Assembly: GCA_026388545.1 (NCBI GenBank)
Contig: JAPLJS010000079.1
Span: 1-35,172 of the forward strand
Source: Deltaproteobacteria bacterium
GTDB taxonomy: Bacteria > Desulfobacterota > Syntrophia > Syntrophales > UBA2185
Length of the DNA stretch: 35,172 nucleotides
Direction of reading: 5' to 3'
Part shown: positions 1-28,204 of the stretch, piece after piece
How positions within the stretch are numbered: the first letter of the stretch is position 1
Layout: every line of letters begins with the position of its first letter
Made by a program: the position numbers and the translations under genes
Notes under the pieces: generated by a model
What the model saw: only the letters and a program-made list of their open reading frames with translations
Databases searched by the model: none
Told to the model about the DNA's origin: nothing

Positions 1-1649
1 TCCTCCTGTGCGTCTCGAAAATCGGTCAACAGGCCGAAGTGCAGGTTAGCGTCCCGATTTGCCAGGAACCGCACTTCAAGCGCCTCGATCAGATCCTCTA
101 TATTCTGCGTGCTTATGAGCATCGTCGGAACCACGGCCAGTGTGCGGAATTCCGGCGGTATCCCTTTGGAGAAGTCCATGCGCGGCAGCGGATGGGGTAT
201 CGCCAACAGCGTTGCCAGCAAGTTTACCAGCGCAATGGCCAGTTGACTTGCGCCCAGAACTGAGAGGAGTACGATCAGAACAATTGCCCATCCCGGTAAC
301 GCACCGACATGCGCCTTCGCCAGTAAGCCCCCGGCGAAGATTGACGTCATCAGCGTGATTGTACCCAGATAGAGGAGAAAAGGAAACCGGCGGCTCCATC
401 TCTGAAGGTACTCAGATGGGGAAAGGCGTACCTCCAGCGCCCGTTCGAGTTGGGGCAATCCCTTGTCGATCAGGTAAAAGCCGACATGTGCCGAGCGATC
501 ATTACCGTCTTTCCCGTTCGCACCCTCATGCGCCAGCCCGATCGCCGTGCGCGCCACCTCGCTCTCGGAAAACCGGCTGTGTCTCGCTATCTTTTCCACG
601 ACATGGCGGTAACGGTCACGGGTAGAAAAATCCATTGTGCCGTAAACGCCTCCGGGGTCCTCGCGCAGCACTTGCTCGACAACGCTCATCGTCTCGACGA
701 ACTCTCGCCAGTCCATCGCGCTCAGGAAACGAAGGCTGCCGATGCTGTTGCTCATGGATACCTGATCGGCAGCCAGTTGTTGGTTCTCCGCCTGCACCAG
801 TTGCTGGATCGTCTGGCCGCACTCGGACAGCCGCTGCTCAAGCCAGGTAAGCGGCAATGACAGAGCAGGACCCTGTCCCTGCAGGCGGCGTGTAATTTCC
901 GCTATAAACGAGCTCACCAGCGGCGGGTTTGATCGCGCCATGTCTGCGATTACCAGAATCAGGCTCTTCGGGTCCTTCGTGGCGCTCTCCGTCATCTGGT
1001 CTGCCCAATAATCGGCCAGGTTGCGGTCGATTCTATCGGTAGCGATCCGGGCGGCAACGCGCCGGAGATTCTCGATCAGCGCCAGGCGCAGCATAATGGG
1101 TATTGCCCACAATTCGCCTAACTTCAGTGCGGTGACGGTCTGGTAGGCTGCGGCAAATCTGCTGAGAATCTCAGGATCTACCCGCCCATCGCCATGGGAG
1201 ATCATTTCCAGCGCAATGTCATATACGCGCGGCAGAGCAGCCGACGGACCATTCATCAGGCGAGAGAGTTCCCGGCTGTACCCCTTTGGCAAATGCCTCC
1301 TGGCGGTGCGTATCTGCTCTTCAATCAGATAGAAGTTGTCGAGCAGCCATTCCCCGGCAGGCGTAATCCGGCGGGTTGCCTTAACCGCCTCCGTCAGCAA
1401 ATTTTGGACGCCAATCAGGAGGCCTTCATTCTCAGCCAGTCTTGTCAGAAGCCGATCCGGAGCGTATCCCGGGCTTAACGTGTGCGAGCCTGCGAGAATC
1501 TTGCCATGCAGCTCCATCTGATCGGCGCTGAATAACTCCGCTCGCAGCGGCGGCTCGAAACAGGCAAACTTTTGCGCCAAACCGTTTCCGCGAAGGCTTG
1601 TCCACAAATGGGACAGGTTCTTGAAAATTGTCTTGGTGATGAACTTCAC
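1..1649 (-). CDS. ndvB: Cyclic beta-1,2-glucan synthase (NdvB-type), N-terminal part, truncated by window edge
   Basis: An open frame runs without a stop from a GTG at 1649 to the left edge (549 codons). An in-frame TGA lies two codons upstream and a GAGG Shine-Dalgarno 8 nt before the GTG, so this start is well supported. Residues 1-410 are soluble and helical. About 420-480 form two membrane segments after a WSRRFPF motif. Next come a HPLPRMDFSKGIP-type block, VVPTML, and a final RDANLHFGLLTDF stretch. These are hallmarks of the GT84 region of cyclic beta-1,2-glucan synthases, which make and cyclise periplasmic or extracellular beta-1,2-glucan from UDP-glucose at the inner membrane. Family members are roughly 2,800 residues with a C-terminal GH94-type phosphorylase domain, so most of this gene lies outside the window. 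A beta-1,2-oligoglucan or cellobiose-phosphorylase-type relative cannot be excluded. Confidence 0.85.
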   Translation of the reverse strand, partial: MKFITKTIFKNLSHLWTSLRGNGLAQKFACFEPPLRAELFSADQMELHGKILAGSHTLSPGYAPDRLLTRLAENEGLLIGVQNLLTEAVKATRRITPAGEWLLDNFYLIEEQIRTARRHLPKGYSRELSRLMNGPSAALPRVYDIALEMISHGDGRVDPEILSRFAAAYQTVTALKLGELWAIPIMLRLALIENLRRVAARIATDRIDRNLADYWADQMTESATKDPKSLILVIADMARSNPPLVSSFIAEITRRLQGQGPALSLPLTWLEQRLSECGQTIQQLVQAENQQLAADQVSMSNSIGSLRFLSAMDWREFVETMSVVEQVLREDPGGVYGTMDFSTRDRYRHVVEKIARHSRFSESEVARTAIGLAHEGANGKDGNDRSAHVGFYLIDKGLPQLERALEVRLSPSEYLQRWSRRFPFLLYLGTITLMTSIFAGGLLAKAHVGALPGWAIVLIVLLSVLGASQLAIALVNLLATLLAIPHPLPRMDFSKGIPPEFRTLAVVPTMLISTQNIEDLIEALEVRFLANRDANLHFGLLTDFRDAQE

Positions 1650-1793
1650 TTTTCAAACCTCGTATTGAGGAGAAGTATCGCCAAACCAGTCGCAATGGTG
1701 GTAGCAGACTTTTATCATTCCTTGACGCAATATTATCTTACCGTAGCAAAGAATCTCGGCGAATCCGATAACGACCGGAATCACTCCCCATGA

Positions 1794-2015
1794 AACTGGC
1801 AGATTGGAATATCTACCCCTGAAGTTTGTACCACACTTAATGTTAAAGTTCCGGCATTTTTTTATTATTTAGGACTGGAACAACTCCCAGCTTCCCACCT
1901 CTCTATGTATGGAAGGGGAAAATATGTGTCGGGTATTGATACAATGACAGCAATGGGTGGTCAGGTTATTTATAGACAGAAAGGAGGGATATTTCATGTG
2001 ACACAGGCAGGTTAA
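1794..2015 (+). pseudogene. Possible C-terminal coding remnant, unrecognised
   Basis: A 73-codon open frame follows a TGA at 1791 and ends at TAA 2013-2015. Its predicted peptide has protein-like composition (mixed aromatic, Gly and polar residues, ending near IFHVTQAG), but there is no start codon or ribosome site near its 5' end. It may be the tail of a broken gene. An AAGGAGG at about 1981-1987 lies inside it but leads only to ATG-TGA. I do not recognise the family, and chance is a real alternative. Nothing else is seen between 1650 and 2057. Confidence 0.2.
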
Positions 2016-2057
2016 CCCTTCTTTGGGCACAATTTTTGTCACACTGATCGACTGCTG

Positions 2058-2252
2058 TTGAGAAATGCCTTTAAACGAAGACTAAACAAAGCCATGCTCT
2101 ACACAAGATATCATCCCCTGATACAAATAGTCTGTAATTCCGTATGGGTAATATTGGGATTATGGATTTATCCGATTGAGAAAACAATTCTGTTGATACC
2201 CTTAATACTGGGCATTGCTTTCGGATTATATATATCGAGGGGTGGCAGATAG
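2058..2252 (+). CDS. Small hydrophobic protein, putative cassette gene
   Basis: A 64-codon frame opens with TTG at 2058, or with ATG at 2094. It encodes a basic N-terminus followed by two hydrophobic stretches (roughly residues 22-38 and 43-58) and ends in a basic SRGGR tail. It looks like a tiny membrane protein of unknown function. There is no clear ribosome-binding site. The best support is context: its stop codon is 5 nt before an attC-like site, the standard layout of an integron gene cassette. It could still be a chance ORF. Confidence 0.35.
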   Translation: MRNAFKRRLNKAMLYTRYHPLIQIVCNSVWVILGLWIYPIEKTILLIPLILGIAFGLYISRGGR

Positions 2253-2257
2253 TTTTA

Positions 2258-2315
2258 GCCCAACCATTTATTTCAGCCGACCGCCTTTGGCGGCGGCTGA
2301 ATTCGGGCGTTACTC
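2258..2315 (+). other. Integron attC-type recombination site
   Basis: This 58-bp site has the architecture of short (59-base-element) attC sites. It begins with GCCCAAC (R'' box, matching RYYYAAC). Imperfect inverted arms TTCAGCCG / CGGCTGAA enclose an inner CCGCC-TTT-GGCGG hairpin with one extrahelical base on one side. It ends in GCGTTACTC. The terminal R' box keeps GTTA but departs from the GTTRRRY consensus, so recombination activity may be reduced. Orientation fits a cassette whose gene (2058-2252) reads toward the site. No integrase gene or second attC lies next to it. Confidence 0.7.
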
Positions 2316-2493
2316 TCTTTCCATCCGTAATCCTCAATTCTGACAACTGCCCACCGCTGAACAGTAGTAGGTGTATAGTCGTAAATCAAGACCTACTTTG
2401 AAATTGATATAAAATTATTCTAAAAGACCATAAAAAATGAGGTAAAACGCCATTTTTCAATTTGCATTTCCCTGGAAGAAAAATCTTTCATCT

Positions 2494-2934
2494 TTATTTG
2501 ATATTCATGGCCATTCGTTTAATAGCATCCTTAAATAAGACTTCCATGCTTGTATCTGAGACCCGTCTGACAAAACCCAGGCCGAATAATTGATGCTTGA
2601 TCACCTCGTCAGGCTTGTATATGTCCTGAACGCGGTACACTTTTACTGGGATTTCCGGATTCATTTCACTATGCTTGCGTTCCCACTGGATGGGGGCATC
2701 GTTGACCGGCTTTCGGCTCTTAGATGCCGTCGTCACTCTTTTTTCTTGCCTGGGCTGCGCCACAAGATCATTGCTTTTTTTCTGTTGCGTTGCCGTTCTG
2801 TACATATGTTCCGAACCGCAGGTTTTACATTTAACCCTTTTAACTTTACCGTCAACTTCATACATGACAACGTGGGCCAGCAAGAGTTTACATTTCGTAC
2901 AGTGGGAATCGATATATTTTCCGACTAATGACAC
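2494..2934 (-). CDS. Zinc-ribbon protein of unknown function
   Basis: This 146-residue soluble protein starts at GTG 2934, 7 nt after an AAGGAG ribosome site. Cysteines at 12, 15, 36 and 39 form a CxxC...CxxC zinc ribbon. A basic, Gln/Lys/Arg-rich linker (about 50-90) leads to a compact C-terminal region, residues 100-146, containing YKPDEVIKH and a GFVRRV motif ahead of a conserved-looking VLFKD. The design (zinc ribbon plus small C-terminal domain) recalls short conserved proteins of Deltaproteobacteria, possibly nucleic-acid-binding. Function cannot be assigned. It is divergent from the TPR gene at 3002. Confidence 0.75.
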   Translation of the reverse strand: MSLVGKYIDSHCTKCKLLLAHVVMYEVDGKVKRVKCKTCGSEHMYRTATQQKKSNDLVAQPRQEKRVTTASKSRKPVNDAPIQWERKHSEMNPEIPVKVYRVQDIYKPDEVIKHQLFGLGFVRRVSDTSMEVLFKDAIKRMAMNIK

Positions 2935-3001
2935 AGGAATCTCCTTATGGTTATATTTTTTATTATGGATATTGAAATCTTGATCTTAAAGTAAAAAACC
3001 C

Positions 3002-3937: not shown

Positions 3938-3984
3938 ACATCCGGTTCCTTGACGTATTCGACGGATGGCGTTTCGAGACTGAC

Positions 3985-17527: not shown

Positions 17528-18349
17528 ATGAGATACAAGTACAAAATCACCATTGAATACGATGGGACCAGTTACAGAGGCTGGCAGACACAGATAAATG
17601 CAAAGAGCGTTCAGGATACGCTGATACATGCGGCCGAGAAGCTGTTCGGAGAGTCAGTGGAGATCCAGGGGGCAGGCCGCACCGATGCAGGTGTCCATGC
17701 CCTCGGTCAGGTTGCCCACCTGGGTGCGACAAAGACAATGCCTCCTCGAAAGATACGGGAGGGTCTGAATGATCTGCTCCCATCCAATATTAATATACTC
17801 AACGTTGAGGAAGTTCCCGTTAGTTTTCATGCCCGCCATTATGCAATCTCGAGAAGCTATCTCTATATTATCTCAAAACACCGGACCGCCTTCGGGAAAA
17901 GGTATGTCTGGTGGGTGAGGGATGCGTTGGACATCGAGAAGATGCGGTCAGTCTGTGATCTTTTTGAGGGATTTCACGATTTTGCATCTTTTGCGGATAA
18001 ACGGCTTGATAAAGATACGTCCACAAAGGTCAAACTGGATGCGGTGGATATCAGAGAAGTGGATGGCCTGATTATCCTGAGATTTGTCGGCTCTCACTTC
18101 TTGTGGAAGATGGTCCGGAGAATGGTAGGGATCATCGTTGAAGCGGGGAGAGGAAGCCTGTCGTACCACGATGTAAAAAAAATGCTTACGCATCCTTCCG
18201 ACCTGCCGGCAAAGAACACGGCGCCGCCATCAGGCCTTTTTCTGGAGCGGGTTTTATATGAGGGCGACACAGAGAAACCGGCACAGACGGGTAGATTATT
18301 TTTCCTTTCAAATACCCTTGCCTCAAATCTTCCGGGAACCTCTCGATAG
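17528..18349 (+). CDS. truA: tRNA pseudouridine(38-40) synthase
   Basis: The 273-residue protein shows the full TruA pattern: ITIEYDGTSYRGWQ, the catalytic motif GAGRTDAGVHALGQ with Asp53, FHARHYAISRSY, and HFLWKMVRRMVGIIVEAGRG near the C-terminus. It isomerises U38-U40 in tRNA anticodon arms. The domain ends at about residue 248 (LFLERVLYEG). The last 25 residues are an unusual extension that overlaps the convergent AlkD-like gene by 164 bp. Confidence 0.95.
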   Translation: MRYKYKITIEYDGTSYRGWQTQINAKSVQDTLIHAAEKLFGESVEIQGAGRTDAGVHALGQVAHLGATKTMPPRKIREGLNDLLPSNINILNVEEVPVSFHARHYAISRSYLYIISKHRTAFGKRYVWWVRDALDIEKMRSVCDLFEGFHDFASFADKRLDKDTSTKVKLDAVDIREVDGLIILRFVGSHFLWKMVRRMVGIIVEAGRGSLSYHDVKKMLTHPSDLPAKNTAPPSGLFLERVLYEGDTEKPAQTGRLFFLSNTLASNLPGTSR

Positions 18350-19025
18350 CGTACCGGAGCATGGTTCGCGGCATGAGCCTGTAGTGTGCTTTCAGAAACA
18401 CTTCCTCCGCCATGTGATCACGTTTGCCGATCTCCCGGAGCATCCAGCCAACTGCTTTGTGAATCAAGTCTTCTGTATCGCTGAGCAACATACCCGCTAC
18501 ATGCAACGTCTCGGCAAACTCCCCATGCTTGATGTAGTGAAATGTTGCCATTACTGCAATCCTGCGTTCCCACAACAGGTTCGATGCTGCCAAGGCATGG
18601 AGCGGCGCCTTGCTTCTATATCTCAAATGAGGACCGACAATATGTTCAGCCGAAATATCCACCAAGTCCCAATTATTGACGAACCGGGTATTCTGAAGAT
18701 ACAGATTATATATCTTCTCTTGGAGAGAAACATCTCCTTTCGCATAGGCACGAACCATGATCAAGAGTGCCAACACTCGTGATTCATGGATGGAGGAGTG
18801 AAGTAATTTCACCGTCTCTGAAAGGGAAAGTCCCTGGAATTCTTTGGCCAGCTTTCTTATCTCCGGAACACGGATACCGACAAATACATCTCCCTCCCCG
18901 TATTCTCCCGGTCCTGTTTTGAAGAATCCTTGCAGCACTTCTGCTCTTTGTGGATCACCAAGCAACTGTAATCTTGCATGGATTTCTTGCACATTCATGA
19001 AGGATAACGATTTTGAAGCATCCAT
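18186..19025 (-). CDS. DNA alkylation repair protein (AlkD-like, HEAT-repeat)
   Basis: This 279-residue all-helical protein matches AlkC/AlkD-like DNA glycosylases: VGIRVPEIRKLAKEF near 49-63, NNWDLVDISAEHIVG (117-131) with the Trp-Asp pair used by AlkD, and a C-terminal ERFPEDLR. The family excises N3- and N7-alkylated purines without flipping the base. The domain should end near residue 232; about 45 further residues are read antisense to truA and are probably incidental. GGAG precedes ATG 19025. Confidence 0.88.
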   Translation of the reverse strand: MDASKSLSFMNVQEIHARLQLLGDPQRAEVLQGFFKTGPGEYGEGDVFVGIRVPEIRKLAKEFQGLSLSETVKLLHSSIHESRVLALLIMVRAYAKGDVSLQEKIYNLYLQNTRFVNNWDLVDISAEHIVGPHLRYRSKAPLHALAASNLLWERRIAVMATFHYIKHGEFAETLHVAGMLLSDTEDLIHKAVGWMLREIGKRDHMAEEVFLKAHYRLMPRTMLRYAIERFPEDLRQGYLKGKIIYPSVPVSLCRPHIKPAPEKGLMAAPCSLPAGRKDA

Positions 19026-19106
19026 GTTTCTCCATACTTTTTAAGTACAGTTTGCCAGCCTAACGGCAGAATTCAGCAGCGGCCACAGGCGGTCGGTCTT
19101 TAATGG

Positions 19107-20075
19107 TTAGCTTACCAGCAAGACTTTACCGGGCTGGCGAAATTCATGCACGACACGGATCGCTTCCTTTACTTCTGAAAGACTGAAACACTGAATCACA
19201 GGCAGCAAATTCGGATCTTCTGAAAGCATTCCCCAAAGCTCTTCTTGCGCAGTTGCTAATTGTCCCTGTGTCGCATTATCAAGCCAGCCGTCTATACCAA
19301 ATCCTTGCCAAATAATATTTTTGAAAAGAAGGGTCGAAGCATAAAGGGTAATCGGGCTGTCATCGAGTAAACCATAAGAGATCAGTCGCCCTCGATGTTC
19401 AAGTGCTTCAATTATTGCTAAGGTGGCTGAGCCTCCGACAGCATCAAGCACAGCGTGGAAACGTCCCTCTGCAATAGCACCCTGCAAAGTTTCTTCAACG
19501 CTTAAGCCTTTCGAAACGGTCTTTCCGGTTTCTGTATCAATGGCGACATAGCCCATGCCTTCCTGTACCAGCAACGTTGCTTTCAGCCTCTTACGCTGTG
19601 AAAGCTTGGTCAAGATACGTGCAATCACTGAGCGCCCCGCAGTAATCAAAAGACGGTTGCCTTCTGCAAGGTTGCATTCTTCAAGGAGGCCCCACGCTGT
19701 GAGTGGATTCAACGGAAACTGACACGCGATGGCATCAGAGATTTCGGCAGGTACGGGATAAACTCTTGATACCGGCGCCACAGCAAGCTCAGCCCATGCA
19801 CCAGGACTGCGAAAAGCGACACGCATGCCGGGGTGATAATCGGTGATGCCAGGCCCGCACGCAGTAATCGTCCCCACGCCATCAAAACCAGCAACTTGAG
19901 GAAAGATGGGTTTGATTCTGTAGCGTCCTTCAATAAATAGAAAATCAGCAGGATGGATTGGGCGACTGGCAACTCTGATCAATACCTGATCTTGCCCGGC
20001 AATTGGAGGTTCAATATCTTGAATTTTTAAAACATCTTGGGCTTTACCTGATTGTTCAAAAATGACGGCTTGCAT
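19107..20075 (-). CDS. Zinc-independent MDR-family oxidoreductase (quinone or enoyl reductase-like)
   Basis: This 322-residue protein is a medium-chain dehydrogenase/reductase. The GroES-like half carries RPIHPADFLFIEGRY and VAGFDGVGTITACG (about 40-75), and NPLTAWGLLEE (122-132) leads into the Rossmann half. The usual nucleotide glycine motif is weakly preserved (TAGRSVIARIL). Zinc-binding Cys and His residues of alcohol dehydrogenases are absent. It most resembles NADPH:quinone reductase or trans-2-enoyl-CoA reductase (MECR/ETR1) types. The substrate is unknown. GAAGGA precedes ATG 20075. Confidence 0.85.
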   Translation of the reverse strand: MQAVIFEQSGKAQDVLKIQDIEPPIAGQDQVLIRVASRPIHPADFLFIEGRYRIKPIFPQVAGFDGVGTITACGPGITDYHPGMRVAFRSPGAWAELAVAPVSRVYPVPAEISDAIACQFPLNPLTAWGLLEECNLAEGNRLLITAGRSVIARILTKLSQRKRLKATLLVQEGMGYVAIDTETGKTVSKGLSVEETLQGAIAEGRFHAVLDAVGGSATLAIIEALEHRGRLISYGLLDDSPITLYASTLLFKNIIWQGFGIDGWLDNATQGQLATAQEELWGMLSEDPNLLPVIQCFSLSEVKEAIRVVHEFRQPGKVLLVS

Positions 20076-20211
20076 TTTTCCTTCCTCTACGGGTTCATTT
20101 CACGCTTCGTCATGTCGCCGCAATGGACGTGCGTATGCGACGAAAACGACTCCCGGGAACCTCGATTCCGCAGCTGAATAAGGACTGAAATGCAGCTTTA
20201 TTTGTGAGACC

Positions 20212-20547
20212 TTATAACCTAATATTATCTTCACTTTTCGGAGGAGGTTTTGAAGCCGTAATATCCCAACAACCATCAGCACATTTGTACCCTCTTTCAA
20301 TCATGCATCTCTGGAAATCTTTCTGATGATTCACCTTAATAATTTCCAATACAATCACAACGGGAAAAATAATTATGAGTGGCCCGAACAAGAAATGTCC
20401 GCCTTGGTATCCGCTTAGCTTGGAACATTCCTCTCGGTCTAATAGAAAGTCGGATTGCGTTTTAGGCGATGGTATTGTGTACCGTTGTTGTGTAGCGCAA
20501 CCTATAGTCATGCCCATTATAAGAATGATTGCCAAAAGCCTTTTCAT
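20212..20547 (-). CDS. Small lipoprotein of unknown function
   Basis: The start chosen is ATG 20547 (111 residues), which gives a standard lipoprotein signal MKRLLAIILIMGMTIGCATQ. A 7-codon longer frame is possible. After the lipidated Cys17, a central hydrophobic segment (about 53-72, FLFGPLIIIFPVVIVLEII) could cross a membrane. The C-terminus carries paired Cys (RCMIERGYKCADGCW) that might form disulfides or be part of a glycine-zipper-like envelope protein. I do not recognise a specific family. Confidence 0.65.
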   Translation of the reverse strand: MKRLLAIILIMGMTIGCATQQRYTIPSPKTQSDFLLDREECSKLSGYQGGHFLFGPLIIIFPVVIVLEIIKVNHQKDFQRCMIERGYKCADGCWDITASKPPPKSEDNIRL

Positions 20548-20581
20548 AACGCCCCTTCGTATGAACAACTAAGAACAACTA

Positions 20582-20653
20582 TGGACACTTCCCTGTTTTA
20601 TTAAATCTGAACTATGTCATGGAGTTAAGTTAACAAAAACAGGGAAGTGTCCA
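20582..20653. repeat. 18-bp inverted repeat, MITE-like palindrome
   Basis: TGGACACTTCCCTGTTTT (20582-20599) recurs as its exact complement at 20636-20653, with a 36-nt AT-rich spacer. Perfect 18-bp arms in an intergenic space of an accessory region suggest a small non-autonomous mobile element or the paired ends of a lost one. A bidirectional terminator is possible, but the U-tracts lie inside the arms. Confidence 0.6.
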
Positions 20654-20660
20654 TAATTAT

Positions 20661-20762
20661 TCAAGGGTAATTGGTGGCTGTCCCCGATTTTTGCACAACT
20701 TTATGAAAATTCAGTAATTTCAAGAAATCTTTGAAGTCTGGATGAAGTTCGATCAATGCCAT
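20661..20762 (-). pseudogene. Truncated nucleotidyltransferase gene (5' remnant)
   Basis: From ATG 20762 the frame reads about 22 residues (IELHPDFKDFLKLLNFHKV), which look like the N-terminus of small nucleotidyltransferase-fold proteins that normally continue with a VGGYAV-type catalytic motif. After 20697 the frame enters a repeat sequence shared with 24683-24710 and stops at 20661, so the catalytic part is gone. It overlaps the end of the upstream small ORF (20701-20904) in another frame. The identification rests on a short stretch. Confidence 0.35.
20666..20690. repeat. Short dispersed repeat, copy A
   Basis: GGTAATTGGTGGCTGTCCCC plus GATTT here is nearly the same as 24683-24710, apart from a 3-4 base change in the middle. 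The copy coincides with the breakpoint of the truncated nucleotidyltransferase gene, suggesting it marks the end of an inserted or recombined segment. Confidence 0.55.
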
Positions 20763-20904
20763 AAACCATTCTCCGGTTGTATTCAATTGCATTAAAGCGG
20801 TCGGATATCGTTCGAGATAGCCAATACTGCTTCTCTTCACTGTCGTCACCGAGGCTAGTGAGTATCAGCACTTTCTTGTTTATCCGTGGCAATTCATTGT
20901 CCAT
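20701..20904 (-). CDS. Small conserved protein, possible antitoxin-like partner of nucleotidyltransferase
   Basis: This 67-residue protein resembles small conserved ORFs that precede nucleotidyltransferase genes, judging by KKVLILTSLGDDSEEKQYWLSRT, the arrangement FNAIEYNRRMVYG, and a C-terminal SRLQRFLEIT. AAGGA lies 9 nt before ATG 20904. Its expected partner immediately downstream is truncated. The function of the pair is not established; a toxin-antitoxin role is only an inference. Confidence 0.6.
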   Translation of the reverse strand: MDNELPRINKKVLILTSLGDDSEEKQYWLSRTISDRFNAIEYNRRMVYGIDRTSSRLQRFLEITEFS

Positions 20905-20987
20905 GAAAGTAAATCCTTTTCTGATTTTTTATCCATAACGATGCGGCTCATGCTCGCAATTTTACCGCGTTGCTATACAGACTCTGG

Positions 20988-21326
20988 TTAACCCCCAATT
21001 ATTTCGTTTAGCCCTTCAATAATTAAATCGATCTCTTCAGGAGATATTGTGGTAATCCTTTTCCCAAGGCGTGAAGTTGAAAAAGTACGAATTTGGCTAA
21101 TTTTAACCCAGGACTTTTTGGGGAGTTCCGGATTTGACAGTTCGAAGGTTAAAGGGAAGCCTGCTTTTTGGGGTTGACTCGTCAGCGCCATGGCTATAAC
21201 GGTGCCGGACCTCTCATTAAACACATCATGACTGAGTATTAAGACAGGGCGTTCACCGGATTGTTCATATCCTTTCGCTGGATCTAAATTCGCCCAGAAA
21301 ATATCTCCCCTCAATATCTTGGCCAT
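20988..21326 (-). CDS. mazF: MazF/PemK-family mRNA interferase toxin
   Basis: This 112-residue protein has the PemK/MazF fold signature: [32 protein letters not shown] at 6-37, VIAMALTSQ, and [18 protein letters not shown]. The family cleaves mRNA at short specific sites when freed from antitoxin. Its start overlaps the end of the upstream ribbon-helix-helix gene by 16 bp, standard for antitoxin-first TA operons. The cleavage motif cannot be predicted. Confidence 0.92.
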
Positions 21327-21553
21327 TGGTCGATCTCCGGTGTAAAACCCTCTTCAGCAAGTGATCGTTCGTCTTTCATATCCAAGTTAGCGCATTCTCG
21401 TGCAAGACGGGACCGATCCAGGCGAGCGATTTTTTCTTCTACGGCTCGTTGAAAGGCTTTGCTGCGGTTGGGAAATACTTTTGACTGTACCAACCTGTCC
21501 AGCTTCTGGAGCAGGGATTCTTCAATTGTTATAGCTATTTTTATGGTACTCAT
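21311..21553 (-). CDS. Ribbon-helix-helix antitoxin of the MazEF-type pair
   Basis: An 80-residue protein. Residues 1-45 ([21 protein letters not shown]...[14 protein letters not shown]) form a ribbon-helix-helix DNA-binding domain. The C-terminal part ([17 protein letters not shown]) is an acidic toxin-binding tail, as in MazE-like RHH antitoxins. It should neutralise the downstream MazF and autorepress the operon. An AGAGGTG ribosome site precedes ATG 21553. Confidence 0.88.
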
Positions 21554-21637
21554 AGCAACACCTCTGGGTATTACAATATATCATACCAAAAAAATATGCA
21601 ATAATCTTTAAGAAGGCTAATGAAAAAATCACCGGCG

Positions 21638-21801
21638 CAAGGAACGAGCGATCAGTTGGTAGGTGATCTATTTTTATTCTGCAAGCAGCCGTATTTAGGA
21701 GTATATTTTGTGGCCAAAATGGGCAGTCTCAGGCTCAATATAGGCAGTTTTTTAATCCTATTCTTTATGATATCTATTACTTATCTTGGTCCGACCCCAT
21801 T
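21638..21801. repeat. 160-bp direct repeat, copy 1
   Basis: About 164 bp from CAAGGAACGAGCGATC to GTCCGACCCCATT. It is roughly 85% identical by eye to 23623-23783, in the same orientation. Shared blocks include TTTTGTGGCCAAAATGGGCA and TTCTTTATGAT. It fills most of the gap between the antitoxin gene and the SRPBCC gene. A frame across it (21620-21862, plus) is probably not a gene. It is probably a mobile-element remnant. Confidence 0.75.
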
Positions 21802-21825
21802 ATATCCTCGCATCGTCATCCGCCA

Positions 21826-22302
21826 CTACATCTGCTTCTTTTTTCTCTTGTCCTCAAGGTGACGGTTCATAAACTCCTCGAGACCTTTCAATCTTCCCCC
21901 AAAATCCTCACTCTCATAGCGCTTGAGAAAGGTGTTGCCTTCCTCTGAAATCGAAGTAAAAACTTGCGTGAACGTTATTGTGAGAAGACCATCGCCGTTC
22001 ACATGGATCTCAATCTTGAAGCGAAACATATATAGATGCGGAGCTGTGAGCAGAAAATCGACAACTCTACTGTTTATATTATATTGAAGAGTGGTCCAGT
22101 ATAATTCAGTACTGTAAGGTTTTATGGTTCTAAAGATGGCGCCTTCTTCATTGTAACCGCTATTTGACCAGATTGTCTCGCACTCCCAGCCCGGAATCCA
22201 TTCTTCTTCTCTTTTCGGACACAGAAGCGGGAATACTTCTTCAACTGCTGCCTTACAGTGAATAACACCCTTTCTCATAAATTGTGTTGCCTGAAATAGC
22301 AT
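21826..22302 (-). CDS. SRPBCC/START-like domain protein
   Basis: This 158-residue protein shows the beginning of SRPBCC ligand-binding folds: IHCKAAVEEVFPLLCPKREEEWIPGWECETIWSNSG. Alternating beta strands follow, then a long C-terminal helix (GGRLKGLEEFMNRHLEDKRKKK). Such domains bind hydrophobic ligands or act in polyketide/aromatic chemistry, and none is specified here. AAGGGAG precedes ATG 22302. It starts 26 nt from an attC-like site, as a cassette gene would. Confidence 0.75.
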   Translation of the reverse strand: MLFQATQFMRKGVIHCKAAVEEVFPLLCPKREEEWIPGWECETIWSNSGYNEEGAIFRTIKPYSTELYWTTLQYNINSRVVDFLLTAPHLYMFRFKIEIHVNGDGLLTITFTQVFTSISEEGNTFLKRYESEDFGGRLKGLEEFMNRHLEDKRKKKQM

Positions 22303-22327
22303 AAAATTACTCCCTTGGTTTTATCAC

Positions 22328-22388
22328 GTCTAACGTACGGATCGGCGGCTGGGGCTTAGCCCCGGTCCGATGGATGCGTCTGTTCAAA
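22328..22388 (-). other. attC-like recombination site
   Basis: Read on the minus strand, this 61-bp segment lies 24 nt after the stop of the flavoprotein gene. It contains an imperfect inverted structure (ATCGG, CCGGGGC-TAA-GCCCC, then CCGAT) and ends in ACGTTAGAC, a perfect GTTRRRY R' box. The opposite box, TTTGAAC, is degenerate. The next gene starts 26 nt beyond. Length, fold and placement fit an integron attC, with one weak arm. Confidence 0.5.
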
Positions 22389-22411
22389 ACAGCATGGATG
22401 CATGGTCGTAA

Positions 22412-23062
22412 TTATGCCTTTGAAGCGATCCGGCAACCGAACTCGAACGCTTTCCGGCAGTCATCCGGAAACTCCGCCTTACGTCGTACTGCCTTCTTGG
22501 CCGGGTCCATATACTCCATAACGACCTTAGAATAGTCCGGAAACTGATAGGTATCATAGCAGCAGAAGGTTTCAGCCTCACCGAAGACCATGCGAAAGTA
22601 TGCCTCAGTGGAACTGAACATCGCCCCATAACCGCGTTCGGCGCACATCTCCTCGGTCGCGTTCATGGTGTAGATGATTCCCGTCCTGATCCTCCGCGGA
22701 AATGCAGACCGGGGCGGTTTAGAATATACGAGGGGGGCAAACAGAAGTCGTTCCATGAATGAGCGCATCTCACCGGTCATTGCTCCGAAGTATATAGGTG
22801 TTCCCAAGATAATCGCATCGGTTTCGTCCTCGATCTTTTTGAGTATCGGGCTAAGGTCATCCTTCAGCGCACATCTTCCGTTGTGCGGCCCATCAATGAT
22901 TTTGCATGCGAAGCAACTCATGCATCCCTTGAAGGCAAGATCGTACAGGTGCACCAACTCGGTATCAGCCCCTTGTGAAGCAGCGCCTTCGAGAGCCTTC
23001 GTCAGCAGGGTCGCCGTATTCCAGTTCTTTCTCGGGCTTCCGTTGATACCAATGATCATCAT
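22412..23062 (-). CDS. Flavodoxin-fold NAD(P)H:FMN reductase with iron-sulfur motif (ISF-like)
   Basis: This 216-residue protein begins with the FMN loop GINGSPRKNWNTATLL (5-20). Cysteines at 47, 50, 53 and 64 (GCMSCFACK) match the cluster motif of archaeal-type iron-sulfur flavoproteins, although the last spacing is longer than usual. GTPIYFGAMTG (about 87-97) is the second FMN loop. Such proteins move electrons between ferredoxin-type donors and small oxidants in anaerobes. A GGGGACAG region precedes ATG 23062. It sits in the cassette-like island between attC-like sequence and the PPOX gene. Confidence 0.85.
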   Translation of the reverse strand: MMIIGINGSPRKNWNTATLLTKALEGAASQGADTELVHLYDLAFKGCMSCFACKIIDGPHNGRCALKDDLSPILKKIEDETDAIILGTPIYFGAMTGEMRSFMERLLFAPLVYSKPPRSAFPRRIRTGIIYTMNATEEMCAERGYGAMFSSTEAYFRMVFGEAETFCCYDTYQFPDYSKVVMEYMDPAKKAVRRKAEFPDDCRKAFEFGCRIASKA

Positions 23063-23164
23063 GTCTCACTGTCCCCTTTCTGGTTGTCGAACGATCACGC
23101 ATCAGAGGCGCGAGCGTCAGTCCGCGTCAGTCTGGCTGTGCTGGTTATGTGATAGCTCGGTTCT

Positions 23165-23584
23165 CTACCCAACTTCAAAATTCTCAGATTTAAAATTGCT
23201 GTAATACCTTCCGTTTTGAGCTGTGAACCTGAGTACGCAGTAATCGGGATCAGTTATACCCTTTGGATAATACATCTCGTCACCAGGCTTCCAGATCATT
23301 TCCTTAGATGCGCTATCATGCAGGACTTCCATAGTTCCCCTAAGCATAACGCCCTTGAAGAATCGTTTATCAAAGAAATACAAGCAAGCTTTCGGGTTAT
23401 TGAGATATTGCCTTACCCTCATTGAGGATGTATTCGTCGTGAAGAAGATATGCTTTATGCCTTCCCTTTTCCTCGGTGGAAGCATCGCTTTTGAATTAGG
23501 AAAACCGTCTTCATCAACGGAACTGATTATAGATACGCTTGCTTTGTCGATCAGATTGCCAATTGTTTTGATCGAATTTCTCAT
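23165..23584 (-). CDS. Pyridoxamine 5'-phosphate oxidase-family FMN-binding protein
   Basis: This 139-residue split-barrel protein has SVSIISSVDEDGFPNSKAMLPP (about 16-37), FFTTNTSSMRVRQYLNNPKACLYFFD (47-72), and a C-terminal YCVLRFTAQNGRYYSNFKS, all typical of general-stress/PPOX-like flavoproteins. The probable activity is FMN-dependent reduction of small molecules or FMN storage, not vitamin B6 synthesis. AAGGAGAAC lies just upstream of ATG 23584. It neighbours the flavoprotein gene, and the two could be functionally paired. Confidence 0.85.
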   Translation of the reverse strand: MRNSIKTIGNLIDKASVSIISSVDEDGFPNSKAMLPPRKREGIKHIFFTTNTSSMRVRQYLNNPKACLYFFDKRFFKGVMLRGTMEVLHDSASKEMIWKPGDEMYYPKGITDPDYCVLRFTAQNGRYYSNFKSENFEVG

Positions 23585-23622
23585 TCTTTTTGTTCTCCTT
23601 CACATAACTAAAGATCACAGGC

Positions 23623-23783
23623 CAAGGAACGAGCGATCGGTAGGTTACCTAATTTTTTCTGCAAGCAATCGTAATCTTAGGTGTATATTTTGTGGCCAAA
23701 ATGGGCAGTTTAAGGCTCAATATAGGCCGTTTTTCAATCATATTCTTTATGATTCCTATTACTTATCTTTGTCCGACCCCATT
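23623..23783. repeat. 160-bp direct repeat, copy 2
   Basis: Second copy of the repeat at 21638-21801, same orientation, with small indels. Together the copies bracket three genes (SRPBCC, iron-sulfur flavoprotein-like, PPOX). It occupies the gap between the PPOX gene and the Mrr-type nuclease gene. Confidence 0.75.
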
Positions 23784-23831
23784 GATCGAGAATCAGACGC
23801 TGGAATGAAAAACGCCAGATGCTATTCCTGG

Positions 23832-24644
23832 TCAGCTCGATGCCGTGTAATTTTTTATTGCACGACAAGCAGGAAACCTTGAACAGCCCCAGAATTGTTG
23901 GCCAACGTTTGCTCCTTTTCGTGCAGTCCTTAACACCATTTCACTGCCGCATTCTGGACAGACAACAGATGTTTTTGTAACAGTTGGCGCTGCTTTACGA
24001 TCACGCTGAACGTTCTTGATAAATTCAAACAGTTGAAAGCCTTCGACCAAATCGATTGGTTTGTTTGCTGCAAAATTCTTCGCCTCTTGAGTAAAGAAAC
24101 CAGAAGTCATTAAAATTGACCTATTTGCATTTTGAGAAATCTGAACGCCGTATAACTCGCGAACTTTGTCAACACCGACCTTGATATTTCGCCATTGCTT
24201 ACATTGAACAAGGATCAGTTCGCCATTCTTTTTCAATGTCAAATCAATGCCGCCATCAGGTCCAGCACTGGTATTTTCATATACCGTATATCCTTGACGC
24301 CGGTAAGCTTCCCCCACTAATTCTTCAAATTCCTTCCAGTTTAAATTACGAACGGTATCAATGGATTCCTGCTTATCTAAAAGTTTACGCTTCCGCCAAT
24401 AATTAATTACCGAAATGGGAGTAGGAATTAACAAAATTAGTGCAATTATCGGAGCAAGCGAGGGCGCGGCAGTAGCCAGCCCTTTGAACAGCATATATGT
24501 TATGTCTGCTGGCCCCTTTTGCTGAATTTCTATTGAGGGTATGAAGTATTTGAGAATCAGATATGAAATGCCAGATAACGCTACACTAACCCACCACGGA
24601 AACAGAGCCAGCATGTCGAGAATTGATTGATTCTTTTTTGCCAT
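23832..24644 (-). CDS. Membrane-anchored Mrr-like restriction endonuclease with topoisomerase-type zinc finger
   Basis: The 270-residue protein has two N-terminal membrane helices (about 15-35 and 56-80). An Mrr_cat nuclease domain (about 100-205) starts at LNWKEFEELVGEAYRRQGYTV, has Asp134 in GPDGGIDL, and QCK at 147-149 (QxK variant of D-QxK), plus SILMTSGFFTQEA. A C-terminal zinc ribbon (Cys229, 232, 254, 260), as in topoisomerase I zinc fingers, ends the protein. Mrr-like proteins cut modified or foreign DNA, and membrane anchoring suggests action on incoming DNA. The gene lies in the cassette island, before the second repeat. Confidence 0.88.
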   Translation of the reverse strand: MAKKNQSILDMLALFPWWVSVALSGISYLILKYFIPSIEIQQKGPADITYMLFKGLATAAPSLAPIIALILLIPTPISVINYWRKRKLLDKQESIDTVRNLNWKEFEELVGEAYRRQGYTVYENTSAGPDGGIDLTLKKNGELILVQCKQWRNIKVGVDKVRELYGVQISQNANRSILMTSGFFTQEAKNFAANKPIDLVEGFQLFEFIKNVQRDRKAAPTVTKTSVVCPECGSEMVLRTARKGANVGQQFWGCSRFPACRAIKNYTASS

Positions 24645-24682
24645 TAATTTTCCTCTATTTTATGGGTTAACGCAAAATGTCT

Positions 24683-24710
24683 GGTAATTGGTGGCTGTTG
24701 TTCCCGATTT
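24683..24710. repeat. Short dispersed repeat, copy B
   Basis: GGTAATTGGTGGCTGTTGTT plus CCCGATTT parallels copy A at 20666-20690. It lies just upstream of the Mrr-like gene start, in a 280-bp non-coding gap that also contains an attC-like site. The gap has no other recognisable gene. Confidence 0.5.
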
Positions 24711-24817
24711 CATACATATTCATAGAGTTTTCCGGTTGCATATAACCCCCCCTATGAGCGCACCAATTGAGCAACCGGCTATTGAGCGTATCTTGTAATC
24801 ATTTTCTTCAAGCCAAT

Positions 24818-24919
24818 GAATAACGCCAATGTGCGCTAAACATCGAGCGCTGCCGCTTCCAAGAACCAGAGATACGGTTTTCAGGATGACCAGCTTGACT
24901 GGTCAATCCTGTTGTTATA
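24818..24919 (-). other. attC-like site after the HEPN/Abi-like gene
   Basis: On the minus strand, 5 nt past the stop of the gene at 24925, the sequence begins TATAACAAC and ends 102 nt later in GGCGTTATTC, the complementary R''/R' boxes of VCR-type attC sites. Inside, near one end, is a stem AGGAT-GACCAG/CTGGTC-A-ATCCT (24883-24910) with a bulged base. The internal L boxes pair poorly, so this may be a degenerate or hybrid site. Confidence 0.45.
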
Positions 24920-24924
24920 CAAAA

Positions 24925-25863
24925 TTATTTTCGAGTGATAAGGGACTTAACCCAAGTCATAGCAGACTCTATGACAAAAGTCTCTTGCTCCTGAGTTAGC
25001 TGTGGCATTTCTTCTGCACCAGGGCCATGCCCATGGGGATTTCTAAGCTCTGAAAATAACATCTTCAGCAAATTAGCCTCCCAGACGTCTATGAATCGCC
25101 CGTTCGACTTGCTTACTAAGTTGTCTATGTAGCTGGCAGCTCCTTTTTCCTTTCCAGATGTAAACCCCTTCTCATCAGAAATGATTTTAATAGTGCTTTC
25201 AAGAGCTTTAAAGGCATATAAGGCAGCATCCCTACCTTTGATGTCTCGCCTGTGGATGGCTTCTTTCATGTCAATATCAACGTTCTTCCATTTTTGATCT
25301 TTCAGGAGTGCCCAAAATGGCTCCTCAATTTCCTGCGCTATCACTTGATCGTTGGAAAATTGAATATAACCGTTGTGGTAATGTAGTGGAAAACCACAGG
25401 TGCGGAATCTGGAATTGAGCTCGGAGATGGCAGATGATAACGCCGCTGATAGAGAAGTATATGCGGCGATGTTTGTGGGAGAAAAAAGCCCTTTCTTCTG
25501 GGTTTGCATCGACTCTGCAAAAGATTCAAGTTCACGGAAGATGAGTTCTATAAGGCTGATCCTGAGCTTAATAAAATAGTCACCCTCTCCATGGCGATCG
25601 TTCCAAAGATTATAGCGTTCAAAAATCAGGAGCCCACAGATCTCATCGTCGGTGCTTCCTGGCCCCAACGACACTAATCCTATTTCTCTAGCAAGTTTTT
25701 TGTGAGATTTTGTGAAAATATCGATTGGGATTTTGTAACCCTTACAGATATCCTCAAAGATAATATGACCAGCCTGCGTGAATAAAATCTGAACTTGAGG
25801 AGGGATATTCCCACCGTAGAACAACGGGTGATTGTACCTCGTATAGAAAACATCGTTGATCAT
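24925..25863 (-). CDS. HEPN-like/abortive-infection (AbiJ-like, STM4504/CBY_0614-like) protein
   Basis: This 312-residue soluble protein resembles a family annotated as abortive-infection or STM4504/CBY_0614-like. It has DYFIKLRISLIELIFRELE (about 95-115), LNSRFRTCGFPLHYHNGYIQF near 150-172, and a C-terminal helical domain with a FKALESTIKIISDEKGF stretch. RNPHGHG at 274-280 resembles the HEPN RNase motif RxxxxH. HEPN proteins in defence systems typically act as RNases that halt growth after phage infection; here this is inferred. GAGGT precedes ATG 25863. attC-like sequences lie directly on both sides, making it a good candidate cassette gene. Confidence 0.7.
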   Translation of the reverse strand: MINDVFYTRYNHPLFYGGNIPPQVQILFTQAGHIIFEDICKGYKIPIDIFTKSHKKLAREIGLVSLGPGSTDDEICGLLIFERYNLWNDRHGEGDYFIKLRISLIELIFRELESFAESMQTQKKGLFSPTNIAAYTSLSAALSSAISELNSRFRTCGFPLHYHNGYIQFSNDQVIAQEIEEPFWALLKDQKWKNVDIDMKEAIHRRDIKGRDAALYAFKALESTIKIISDEKGFTSGKEKGAASYIDNLVSKSNGRFIDVWEANLLKMLFSELRNPHGHGPGAEEMPQLTQEQETFVIESAMTWVKSLITRK

Positions 25864-25881
25864 GTAGCGTTACCTCTTTTT

Positions 25882-25970
25882 GTATAACGCCTGAGCTGTG
25901 GAGCCGCCGAACGTCAGCGAGGATACTTAGCGCTCAGCAGAAGACGGTCCGCACAAGAGAATTGTTATAT
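25882..25970 (-). other. Integron attC-type site (VCR-like)
   Basis: Read on the minus strand, the 89-bp segment starts TATAACAATT 2 nt after the stop of the gene at 25972 and ends GGCGTTATAC. The R''/R' boxes are exact complements. The arms TGTGCGGACCG and CGGCTCCACA pair with one extrahelical base, as attC folds require. The next gene starts 18 nt later. This agrees closely with large attC sites in sedentary integrons. Confidence 0.7.
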
Positions 25971-25971
25971 T

Positions 25972-26241
25972 TCAGTCAGCTTCATTGATAGATTCGATTG
26001 CTTGAATTAATTCTTTGAGAAGCTCTCCAATTCCAGACATTTGTTCATCATGTGTGTCACCATTCTCTACATAAAGATCATTTTTGCGTTGTAATTCGAG
26101 AACTTTTTTTGCTTCTATTACATCGGATACTGACACTTTTTTTTCTTTCGAAACCTTTATGGCATTTTCAAGAAAGTCTTCAATATCTAATAATTTGATA
26201 ACTCGATGATTTCTTTCCGGTTGTTTAAACAATGTTCCCAT
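25972..26241 (-). CDS. Small hypothetical protein, putative cassette gene
   Basis: An 89-residue charged, helical protein with no signal peptide, cysteines or recognised domain. VIKLLDIEDFLENAI and a KKVSVSDVIEAKKVLELQR heptad-like stretch suggest a coiled-coil or helical-bundle protein. A near-ideal AAAGGAGG lies 5-6 nt before ATG 26241, so it is expressed. Its stop abuts the attC-type site at 25882-25970, making the pair a textbook cassette. Function unknown; it may work with the HEPN-like protein encoded next. Confidence 0.65.
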   Translation of the reverse strand: MGTLFKQPERNHRVIKLLDIEDFLENAIKVSKEKKVSVSDVIEAKKVLELQRKNDLYVENGDTHDEQMSGIGELLKELIQAIESINEAD

Positions 26242-26589
26242 TGTAACCTCCTTTAGCTATTGATATATAACGAGTCTGCAGGAAAAGTCTGATTTGACCA
26301 TTTTGTGAAAAATTCCGCTTAATTAAATTAGATACTTATAAACCTAGGAAATGCAAAAATAACAGGTTTTACCCCTTTTCCTACAGGCTCAACATCAAAA
26401 GTCAGCCGCCTAACTTGTTCGGCTCGAAAACTCCAGCCTGTCTTCTATCAATTCTGGATACTTGCTCATAATATTTTGTAATCTTTTTCCAACATTACAT
26501 TTTTACCTCAGTATATATAGACGACATATTTCTAACTTATAAAGAAACTCCGTCAGTCAAGCCGATAGATCCCTCTATTAGAACTCGTT
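26242..26589 (-). other. Non-coding gap with possible frameshifted coding remnant
   Basis: No intact gene is seen in 348 bp. On the minus strand two short open stretches in different frames read like one interrupted protein. One ends in VFEPNKLGG, and after a +1 shift a second reads LTFDVEPVGKGVKPVIFAFPRF before a stop at about 26330. That tail loosely resembles Rep_3-type plasmid initiators, but this is weak. CGTTATATATC at 26263-26273 could be the R' end of a degraded attC ahead of the small gene at 26241. Confidence 0.25.
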
Positions 26590-27738
26590 CTACATTGGCT
26601 GCACCTTCATACTGATACTCAGGCCGGTCTGCAATTTCCTCACAACCTGAGCGTATACTTCGTCGAAGTCCCAGAAGTTGTTGAACGCACTCATAGTAAA
26701 CTGCAAGAACTCCTTCTGACCGTCATCAGGTTGTAGTCGCATGAGTTGCTCGATTACCGTGGAGGGCACTGGCCAAAGTACCCCCTGGTTCATGATCAGC
26801 TTTGGTAGTCTTATACGCCCAATAGTGACCGAAGCACGGGCAGGAGCGGAGAGGAACCCACGCAAGGCTTCTTCCGTTTTGAAGACATTCGGAGCTGCAT
26901 CGAAGAGCCCCGCAGGAAACTTCACGCGCAAAGTTCGGCGCTCTGTAGCTCTCGTGAGCGCGTCAACTAACTGATATGCCCTCCCCTCCCCTTTTAGCTG
27001 AAAAGTCAAGGCTGAAACTTCGTATTTAACCTGAATGTTGTTTATGGAGTTCTTACGACCGTCCGCCAGATACTTCCAGTCATCGGGTATTTCCATGCGG
27101 TAGACGTGACTTCCGCAAATCAGAGGAGGAGTTCCCCTAAGCCAAGCCGCCCAAAGTAGATCGGCGATAGACCCCTTATAATTTCCATCTATGTCGTAGT
27201 ACTGCATGTGCTGGAATGAGCCGCCCTCAATCATCTCATCGGTGTTAAAGGTGAGTTCTTTTAACGCACAGGCCATAAAAACGTGTGACTGAATTGCATC
27301 AAAAATGAGATCCTTGGCCTCTGAAAACTCGGCCCCTGCCAAGACAAGAGTTCTCATTCCGACTTCTTGAGCTCGTTCAACTGCCGGTTGAGTGAATCCG
27401 GCAGTTGATACGAAGATACTCGTTTGGGTTGGGAGACCGACATCCATTAGCTTGCCAACAAAAGTGTCGATCTGTGGCGAATCAGTTCTCCTGTTATGAT
27501 GTTTGCATTCGACCGCCAGATGGATTGGCTGCCCGGCAAGGCTGCCGGTGATCAGCACGTCGATTTCGCGCATGCCACCTCTACCTCCACGTCGCCTAAG
27601 CGCAGGGAGTCGCACATTTTTCTGAACCCGTACATCGGGAGCCTGAAAGACGATAGCCACGATCTGTTCGACGAGCTTCCATTTCTTCGATCTCTTTGTA
27701 GTGCCATCGATTCTGTCAGTAGCAGGCATGACTTTCAT
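26590..27738 (-). CDS. PD-(D/E)XK (Mrr-like) restriction endonuclease with large C-terminal domain
   Basis: A 382-residue protein. The N-terminal nuclease domain (about 15-150) shows Glu24 (KLVEQIVAIVF), Asp60 in REIDVLITG, and ECK at 77-79 in LAVECKHH, a complete PD-(D/E)XK site. IFVSTAGFTQPAVERAQEVGM (about 107-127) is typical of Mrr-like folds. Residues 150-382 form an additional domain I do not recognise, probably for target recognition or partner binding. No methyltransferase adjoins it directly; the nearest lies beyond one small gene. It could be a modification-dependent nuclease or part of the neighbouring defence cluster. The ribosome site before ATG 27738 is weak. Confidence 0.8.
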   Translation of the reverse strand: MKVMPATDRIDGTTKRSKKWKLVEQIVAIVFQAPDVRVQKNVRLPALRRRGGRGGMREIDVLITGSLAGQPIHLAVECKHHNRRTDSPQIDTFVGKLMDVGLPTQTSIFVSTAGFTQPAVERAQEVGMRTLVLAGAEFSEAKDLIFDAIQSHVFMACALKELTFNTDEMIEGGSFQHMQYYDIDGNYKGSIADLLWAAWLRGTPPLICGSHVYRMEIPDDWKYLADGRKNSINNIQVKYEVSALTFQLKGEGRAYQLVDALTRATERRTLRVKFPAGLFDAAPNVFKTEEALRGFLSAPARASVTIGRIRLPKLIMNQGVLWPVPSTVIEQLMRLQPDDGQKEFLQFTMSAFNNFWDFDEVYAQVVRKLQTGLSISMKVQPM

Positions 27739-27822
27739 TGATAAACCGTCTATTATGGAAAGGATTCAACTTCGCAAAGCTTTGCGGAATTGCGTGGCAC
27801 TAACTGTCACGTCATTGCCAGC

Positions 27823-28113
27823 TCACGGTAAAGTGATTCTCCAAAAACCTCTCTCGCCTTCCTCTATCCAGTAACCTTCTAAGAATTTGCTATTTGGAAT
27901 TCGATGCAAAGTAGCTCGTGCTTGCCTTTCTGGACATTTCAATACAAAATGACCATGTCCTTTATCCTTTCCTTCGTAAATAACCACTCCATTATCATCT
28001 TTATAGGATAGTACAATTACATTTCCGTTTATTCTGATTTCGCATTCTTCCCCTTCATCAGCGGGAGTTTCATCGTAAAACACGGTATCCATCAATGCTG
28101 TTTTTGCCACCAT
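27823..28113 (-). CDS. Small hypothetical protein in restriction cluster
   Basis: The start chosen is ATG 28113 (96 residues), because GGAG lies about 10 nt upstream. A 7-codon longer frame exists. The product is beta-rich and acidic, with DTVFYDETPADEGEECEIRI, a KDDNGVVIYEGKDKG turn and a C-terminal GYWIEEGERGFWRITL. There are no catalytic motifs or membrane segments. It lies between the methyltransferase and the second nuclease on the same strand, so a role in the restriction cluster is possible, but function is unknown. Downstream (27776-27792) the sequence contains a palindrome around CGCAAAGCTTTGCG. Confidence 0.6.
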   Translation of the reverse strand: MVAKTALMDTVFYDETPADEGEECEIRINGNVIVLSYKDDNGVVIYEGKDKGHGHFVLKCPERQARATLHRIPNSKFLEGYWIEEGERGFWRITLP

Positions 28114-28204
28114 TAGTAGTAATCTCCTATGCACTTTAGTGCCGCCAATTACTGGCAGGTTGGAAGCTCAGAAGTGTCCACGCACCTTGCAGTGCCTTCT
28201 TGAC

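Follow-up and report, generated by a model that had tools for sequence, protein, structure and literature searches.

Single orphan attC sites are known, and where and how gene cassettes settle outside integrons is a live question. The locus described here raises that question in a simple form: how did one attC site, with a small ORF just in front of it and no integrase alongside, come to stand in a chromosome of the order Syntrophales, and what is it joined to? The window, that is, the whole stretch of DNA that was analysed (35,172 nucleotides), is the complete contig C79 of a draft genome of 3.28 Mb, which comprises 128 contigs and is estimated to be 100% complete. The site is read here, with a probability of roughly 0.6, as a single attC lacking an integrase, which ends one cassette with a decayed gene and which an integrase joined to a 66-bp element (Table 1). 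If a conserved repeat marks the place where a cassette settles, off-array integration targets become predictable and testable. If, on the other hand, the attC travels with the repeat, this is relevant to the way in which ordinary genes come by an attC, a matter that to our knowledge is still unsettled.

Table 1. Features of the window and their positions.
Feature	Positions	Strand	Details
Zone in which the 5' boundary of the cassette has to lie	1870..1995	+	Flank similarity ends in relatives
Decayed 5' end of the cassette gene	1981..2054	+	AAGGAGGG at 1981-1988, ATG at 1996-1998, TGA directly after it, frameshift near 2050
Part of the gene relic that is still open (the 64-aa ORF listed from 2058)	2055..2252	+	tblastn homologues
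attC site	2258..2315	+	Covariance model 34.1 bits, E 7.8e-6; fold z -4.6; crossover expected between G2309 and T2310
R'' box GCCCAAC	2258-2264		
L'' box CAGCCG	2274-2279		
L' box CGGCTG	2294-2299		
R' box GTTACTC	2309-2315		
66-bp dispersed element CGTTACTCTCTTTC...GTAGGTG	2308..2373	+	Overlaps the R' box; model R1 79.4 bits, E 4.6e-24, with the window copy in the training set of R1
GTAGGTG, right edge of the element	2367..2373	+	In G006, the unit common with G003 stops and a different flank starts here
Probable decayed cassette array without integrase (CALIN)	18186..28134	-	Three attC matches and cassette-typical cargo
attC match	19058-19112	-	17.2 bits, E 0.083
attC match	22328-22388	-	16.1 bits, E 0.15
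attC match	25882-25970	-	21.8 bits, E 0.0065

The attC site

The first-pass annotation had placed a 58-bp attC-like element behind the small ORF, and its position and box order are borne out, with all four boxes (R'', L'', L' and R') in their order. The site starts 5 nt past the stop of the ORF (2058-2252), as had been claimed, and the gene immediately upstream is co-directional, although it is a relic. Two checks that had been proposed, a search with an attC model and a fold of the bottom strand, gave concordant results: the site is the best of the four matches in the window at E<=10, its opposite strand reaching 8.4 bits with the same covariance model, and the bottom strand reaches a folding energy of -17.7 kcal/mol, compared with -8.2 for shuffled sequences, with none of 200 shuffles as good. 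Judged by its boxes, its hairpin and its score, 2258-2315 is a genuine attC and a predicted substrate of IntI.

The covariance model behind these scores was built from 23 attCs that lie beside integron integrases (20 from Syntrophales genomes and three from plasmid-borne class 1 integrons, the window contributing none), of which 22 were motif-finder candidates picked by orientation and appearance and one (L053:9697-9756) was chosen by eye, the motif finders being used solely for choosing training sites. Since these sites were chosen by a simple motif finder and by eye, the model differs from that of IntegronFinder and its E-values, obtained with a short calibration, are rough. Rfam, which may have no attC family, gave no match at gathering scores.

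The R' box consensus is GTTRRRY, from which GTTACTC departs, as had been remarked. TTACTC lies in the first part of the 66-bp dispersed repeat, and the box is off consensus because these letters belong to the downstream element; as all that follows the G of the crossover belongs to it, the R' consensus says nothing about that part of the attC which the cassette itself contributes. It had also been considered that the palindrome might be a dispersed repeat of this genome, and this holds for one half only: the hairpin is not strongly repeated (its best other match in the genome covers 38 bases at 83%, E 0.019, and is itself an attC), whereas what follows from the crossover on is recurrent.

Integron integrases were defined by the curated cut-off of the TIGR02249 profile, which was searched in 149 genomes of the order Syntrophales and was passed in 57 of them. 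The genome of the window is not among these, its best partial match in the 128-contig draft reaching 82.7 bits, so that the claimed lack of an integrase nearby extends to the whole genome. A complete integron, with intI and attI beside an array, is likewise not what the window site presents.

The gene relic and its 5' boundary

The small ORF, with a start at 2058, had been taken for an intact cassette gene of a small membrane protein; this was not supported, since its homologues reach further 5', where the window has a stop and a frameshift. In 155 Syntrophales genomes, the 64-aa ORF has two homologues beyond the window, in addition to a fragment in G008; by tblastn the two correspond to a 266-aa ORF of G150 (L187; 60% over 65 aa) and to a 95-aa ORF of G030 (L188; 52% over 44 aa). 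Both align solely from 2055 on, and their N-termini, matched by eye, have no intact counterpart in the window, where the broken frame compared with them translates as M*HRQVNPSLGTIFVTLIDCC*. The same broken start is found in G008 (L006). A Pfam search of the small ORF (2055-2252) gave no match. On these comparisons, ORF 2058-2252 is a gene relic, whose lost start would lie near 1996.

A comparison of the locus with relatives had been suggested as a way to its 5' boundary, and it delivered a zone (about 1870-1995) and not the exact junction. Similarity to the flank of the window stops near 1869 in G109 (L193) and near 1899 in G018 (L007), and because it ends there and the start of the relic lies upstream, the boundary is placed in this zone and not at 2058. 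G008 has the window sequence in common up to 2111; about 85 nt (approximately 2025-2111, by eye) are identical between the two in a region that is otherwise near 89%, and they diverge abruptly at 2111. Further upstream, the label 'ndvB-like' for ORF 3-1649 was not confirmed, as this ORF has no match in Pfam or NCBIfam.

The 66-bp element

A search of relatives with the locus showed 2308-2373 to be recurrent, and with a sequence model built from 33 copies this element was found in 80 of 149 Syntrophales genomes and in up to 34 copies per genome. In all, 87 distinct copies were collected, and the core is also present in 17 stretches of a named genome collection, most of which bear the labels Syntrophaceae or Smithellaceae, from which the order is called Syntrophales here. 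Neither an ORF nor inverted ends or intron motifs were noticed in the element, and the 33 copies have 0 consensus pairs, which led us to reject a group II intron or a structured RNA. A coding reading of its bottom strand was likewise set aside, since the differences between copies alter the protein and one copy has a stop (by eye).

The nearest ORF of at least 90 aa upstream of the element is co-directional with it in 65 of 73 copies, against 51 of 78 for the nearest one downstream, and the element thus goes with the 3' side of genes. These genes are not one family, as the 68 proteins just upstream of the element (alignment A3) gave mixed Pfam families; a caspase domain (PF00656) is present in four of the 68 and TPR repeats in five. 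A GTT-like core at the left edge is missing from 28 of 83 copies. A simple search for stems upstream of these copies separated the two groups poorly (a stem of at least 7 in 29% of the 55 with the core vs 25% of the 28 without it), which is why the covariance model was relied on.

On the other side, the sequences 3' of GTAGGTG belong to several families, and a k-mer comparison of 84 downstream regions gave an ACTTCTTCCTGTA motif. A second dispersed module, GTAGGTGnAAGCAGnAATCGACTTC..., starts at GTAGGTG with different sequences to its left (L223-L229, L219, L130). One conserved flank in four genomes (L064, L062, L220, L221) is bordered by a variable place, where G008 has a tRNA-like gene with anticodon TTT (by eye) and where G003 and G007 carry different element-ended units.

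Register of attC sites and elements

How often does an attC end where an element begins? The 80 element-bearing loci, a biased sample for this count since they were fetched for carrying the element, hold 22 attC matches at E<=5. In nine of these the end lies exactly 7 nt into the element, which is also the register of the window, and in a further three it lies at 2, 5 or 8 nt. These 12 abutting matches represent 11 distinct units (L015 and L022 carry the same one), and the other ten are found elsewhere, in part upstream, where they look like the ends of previous cassettes. A further 34 loci were not chosen for the element, 29 having been picked for attC score and five taken from known attC places of the window's genome. 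They hold 83 attC matches (some counted twice, since loci overlap) and three elements, and all three abut an attC, at 7, 7 and 8 nt. Most attCs thus have no element after them, yet elements near attCs sit at the crossover. Since GTTA is favoured by the attC model in the R' box and also occurs in the element, weak matches (14-16 bits) may be drawn into this register; for matches of 20-48 bits this is hardly the case. Two further cases were seen by eye, one in the window's genome (L273) and one in L068, where a diverged copy follows an attC.

An attI site adjoins intI and faces the start of the first cassette. The element, in contrast, stands on the attC side, and in the fetched integrase-linked stretches it is absent save for one locus of G008 with a broken integrase, where no attC abuts it, and for two weak matches (E 0.21 and 0.5); it was accordingly rejected as an attI site.

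How the attC and the element may have met

The register described above is what the explanation weighed highest accounts for, and the score of the attC, the gene relic and the mostly co-directional ORFs upstream of the element also speak for it. An integron integrase, now gone from the genome, would have joined the cassette at its attC crossover (G^TT) to a downstream, lineage-specific 66-bp element, which would thereby have supplied the TTACTC of the R' box. With the integrase lost, the cassette would have become immobile and its gene would have lost its start and its frame, the attC and the element staying in place. Since 57 of the 149 Syntrophales genomes have integron integrases over the cut-off, a source of the enzyme existed. 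We infer that the joint is the work of an integrase and that the element served as its partner, and not as the end of a mobile unit that already carried the cassette; either of the two may be the mover.

A wider proposal would be that Syntrophales chromosomes hold up to dozens of elements whose left edge is the integron crossover, and that these serve as cassette-receiving or cassette-ending sites, distinct from attI, from attC and from the diverse attG sites, at which cassettes are captured or created singly. This is doubtful. Against the integrase-made joint itself stand several observations. No conserved left half of a target was found upstream of the cassettes, 28 of 83 copies have no GTT-like core, and the fetched integrase-linked stretches lack the element save for the G008 locus with the broken integrase. 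In five of five pairs that share the upstream gene, similarity passes the gene end into the element and does not stop at the crossover; one gene-attC-element unit is found at different sites in two congeners with the element attached; and copies without an attC simply follow gene ends. Given the five pairs and the relocated unit, an element that travels with the cassette is favoured over a landing pad.

The same observations lend some weight to another explanation, in which the element is the right end of a transposon-like or island-like mobile unit and the gene, attC and element move as one block with its junction at GTAGGTG, integron recombination having merely loaded the unit beforehand. 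All five gene-sharing pairs retain at least the first part of the element, and in three of them similarity stops at its end. The relocated unit of G006 occupies another site in its congener G003, and bases 1-787 of L130 are found at G003:C6 (98%) and bases 781-4000 at G003:C16 (95%), the two overlapping in GTAGGTG. A right junction at GTAGGTG is hence seen in shared units, but neither a second end on the left nor inverted repeats or a transposase could be identified; in two of the five pairs similarity breaks off within the element, 38 and 20 nt short of its end, and a mobile unit alone gives no reason for the element to start at the integron crossover. Taken together, this origin of the block is possible, if rather unlikely.

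Ordinary off-target integration beside a repeat that adjoins the cassette by coincidence appears improbable. Insertion of cassettes at non-classical genomic attG sites, divergent and spread over many loci, has been reported (Loot et al. 2024, Nat Microbiol, as cited in PMC12901181 and PMC12444791), and single orphan attCs are common in Shewanella according to passages of a survey of that genus (PMC9229058). As with attG, the place would be a genomic one outside attI and attC that receives cassettes; it would differ in that the receiving sequence is a conserved 66-bp repeat. Compared with an attG target, a right half was found here; a k-mer comparison of 82 upstream regions revealed no specific conserved left half upstream of cassettes, and the 5' junction was not located. 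Against coincidence stands the recurrence of the same element, in the same register, beside different attCs of other genomes.

It is more improbable still that attC and element form one composite dispersed repeat, which lands 3' of ordinary genes and turns them into cassettes. All seven attCs assigned by eye to the CAGCYAATCG type, out of 19 pattern matches in the collected loci, precede the element or a variant of it, and L019 and L026 align over the attC, the element and the downstream module with different genes upstream. However, attCs of one lineage should resemble each other in any case, most of the collected loci were chosen for carrying the element, and the attCs adjacent to elements are of several types, some of them also present in integrase-linked arrays. 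Finally, it is hardly credible that the palindrome is an ordinary terminator or arose as a hairpin by chance, since the off-consensus R' box that would favour it is outweighed by the fold, by the other attC arrays of the same genome and by the ordered boxes and the model score, which already contradicts it.

Relation to known systems

The site is of a known kind, one attC without an integrase, and the literature searched yielded no description of its setting or of such an element in Syntrophales. The term SALIN is applied to a single attC lacking an integron integrase in passages of the Shewanella survey (PMC9229058). The window site is alike in having one cassette-type attC, an adjacent ORF and no integrase alongside, with no TIGR02249 match over the cut-off in the 128-contig draft and the next attC about 17 kb away, but its ORF is a relic and its crossover abuts a lineage-wide repeat. 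A CALIN, in turn, is a cluster of attC sites lacking an integrase, as passages on IntegronFinder 2.0 (PMC9024848) have it. Integrase-less arrays of this kind occur in the window's genome and probably in the window itself, whereas the attC discussed here stands alone, on the other strand and at a distance of about 17 kb from the rest.

The 3'-conserved segment of class 1 integrons is a conserved sequence that starts at the crossover of the last attC, and in this it resembles the element, which differs by its many short dispersed copies without an integrase end and by a conserved length of 66 bp or slightly more. Group IIC-attC introns and MITEs sit at attC sites or cassettes. The element shares this position and differs from both in what it contains, as described above. 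Group IIC introns are named in the abstract of PMC7923331.

Other attC sites in the window and its genome

The site had been called solitary, which is right in so far as the nearest other attC is about 17 kb off, although three weaker attCs lie on the minus strand of the same window. The attC model matches 19 places of the genome at E<=0.05. Contig C77 (L268, G000:C77) has nine matches at E<=0.5 within a 10-kb stretch, all on one strand, and C61 (L269, G000:C61) has four, some of the attCs of these two arrays scoring above 45 bits; the genome thus holds integrase-less arrays. Within the window, the minus-strand region at 18-28 kb is probably a decayed cassette array, two of its three attCs being individually weak. 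Its ORFs belong to the DNA alkylation repair, alcohol dehydrogenase, PemK/MazF toxin, FMN reductase, pyridoxamine oxidase, Mrr restriction and AbiJ families, and such gene families are cargo expected of cassettes. The further suggestion that the locus is the relic of a larger array gains partial support from this region, from the attC at 19058-19112, which by eye resembles that at 2258-2315, and from the other integrase-less arrays of the genome. The region also contains a 107-nt direct repeat, 92% identical between its two copies (21695-21801 and 23677-23783); by eye, a degenerate attC-like stretch comes after each copy on the minus strand.
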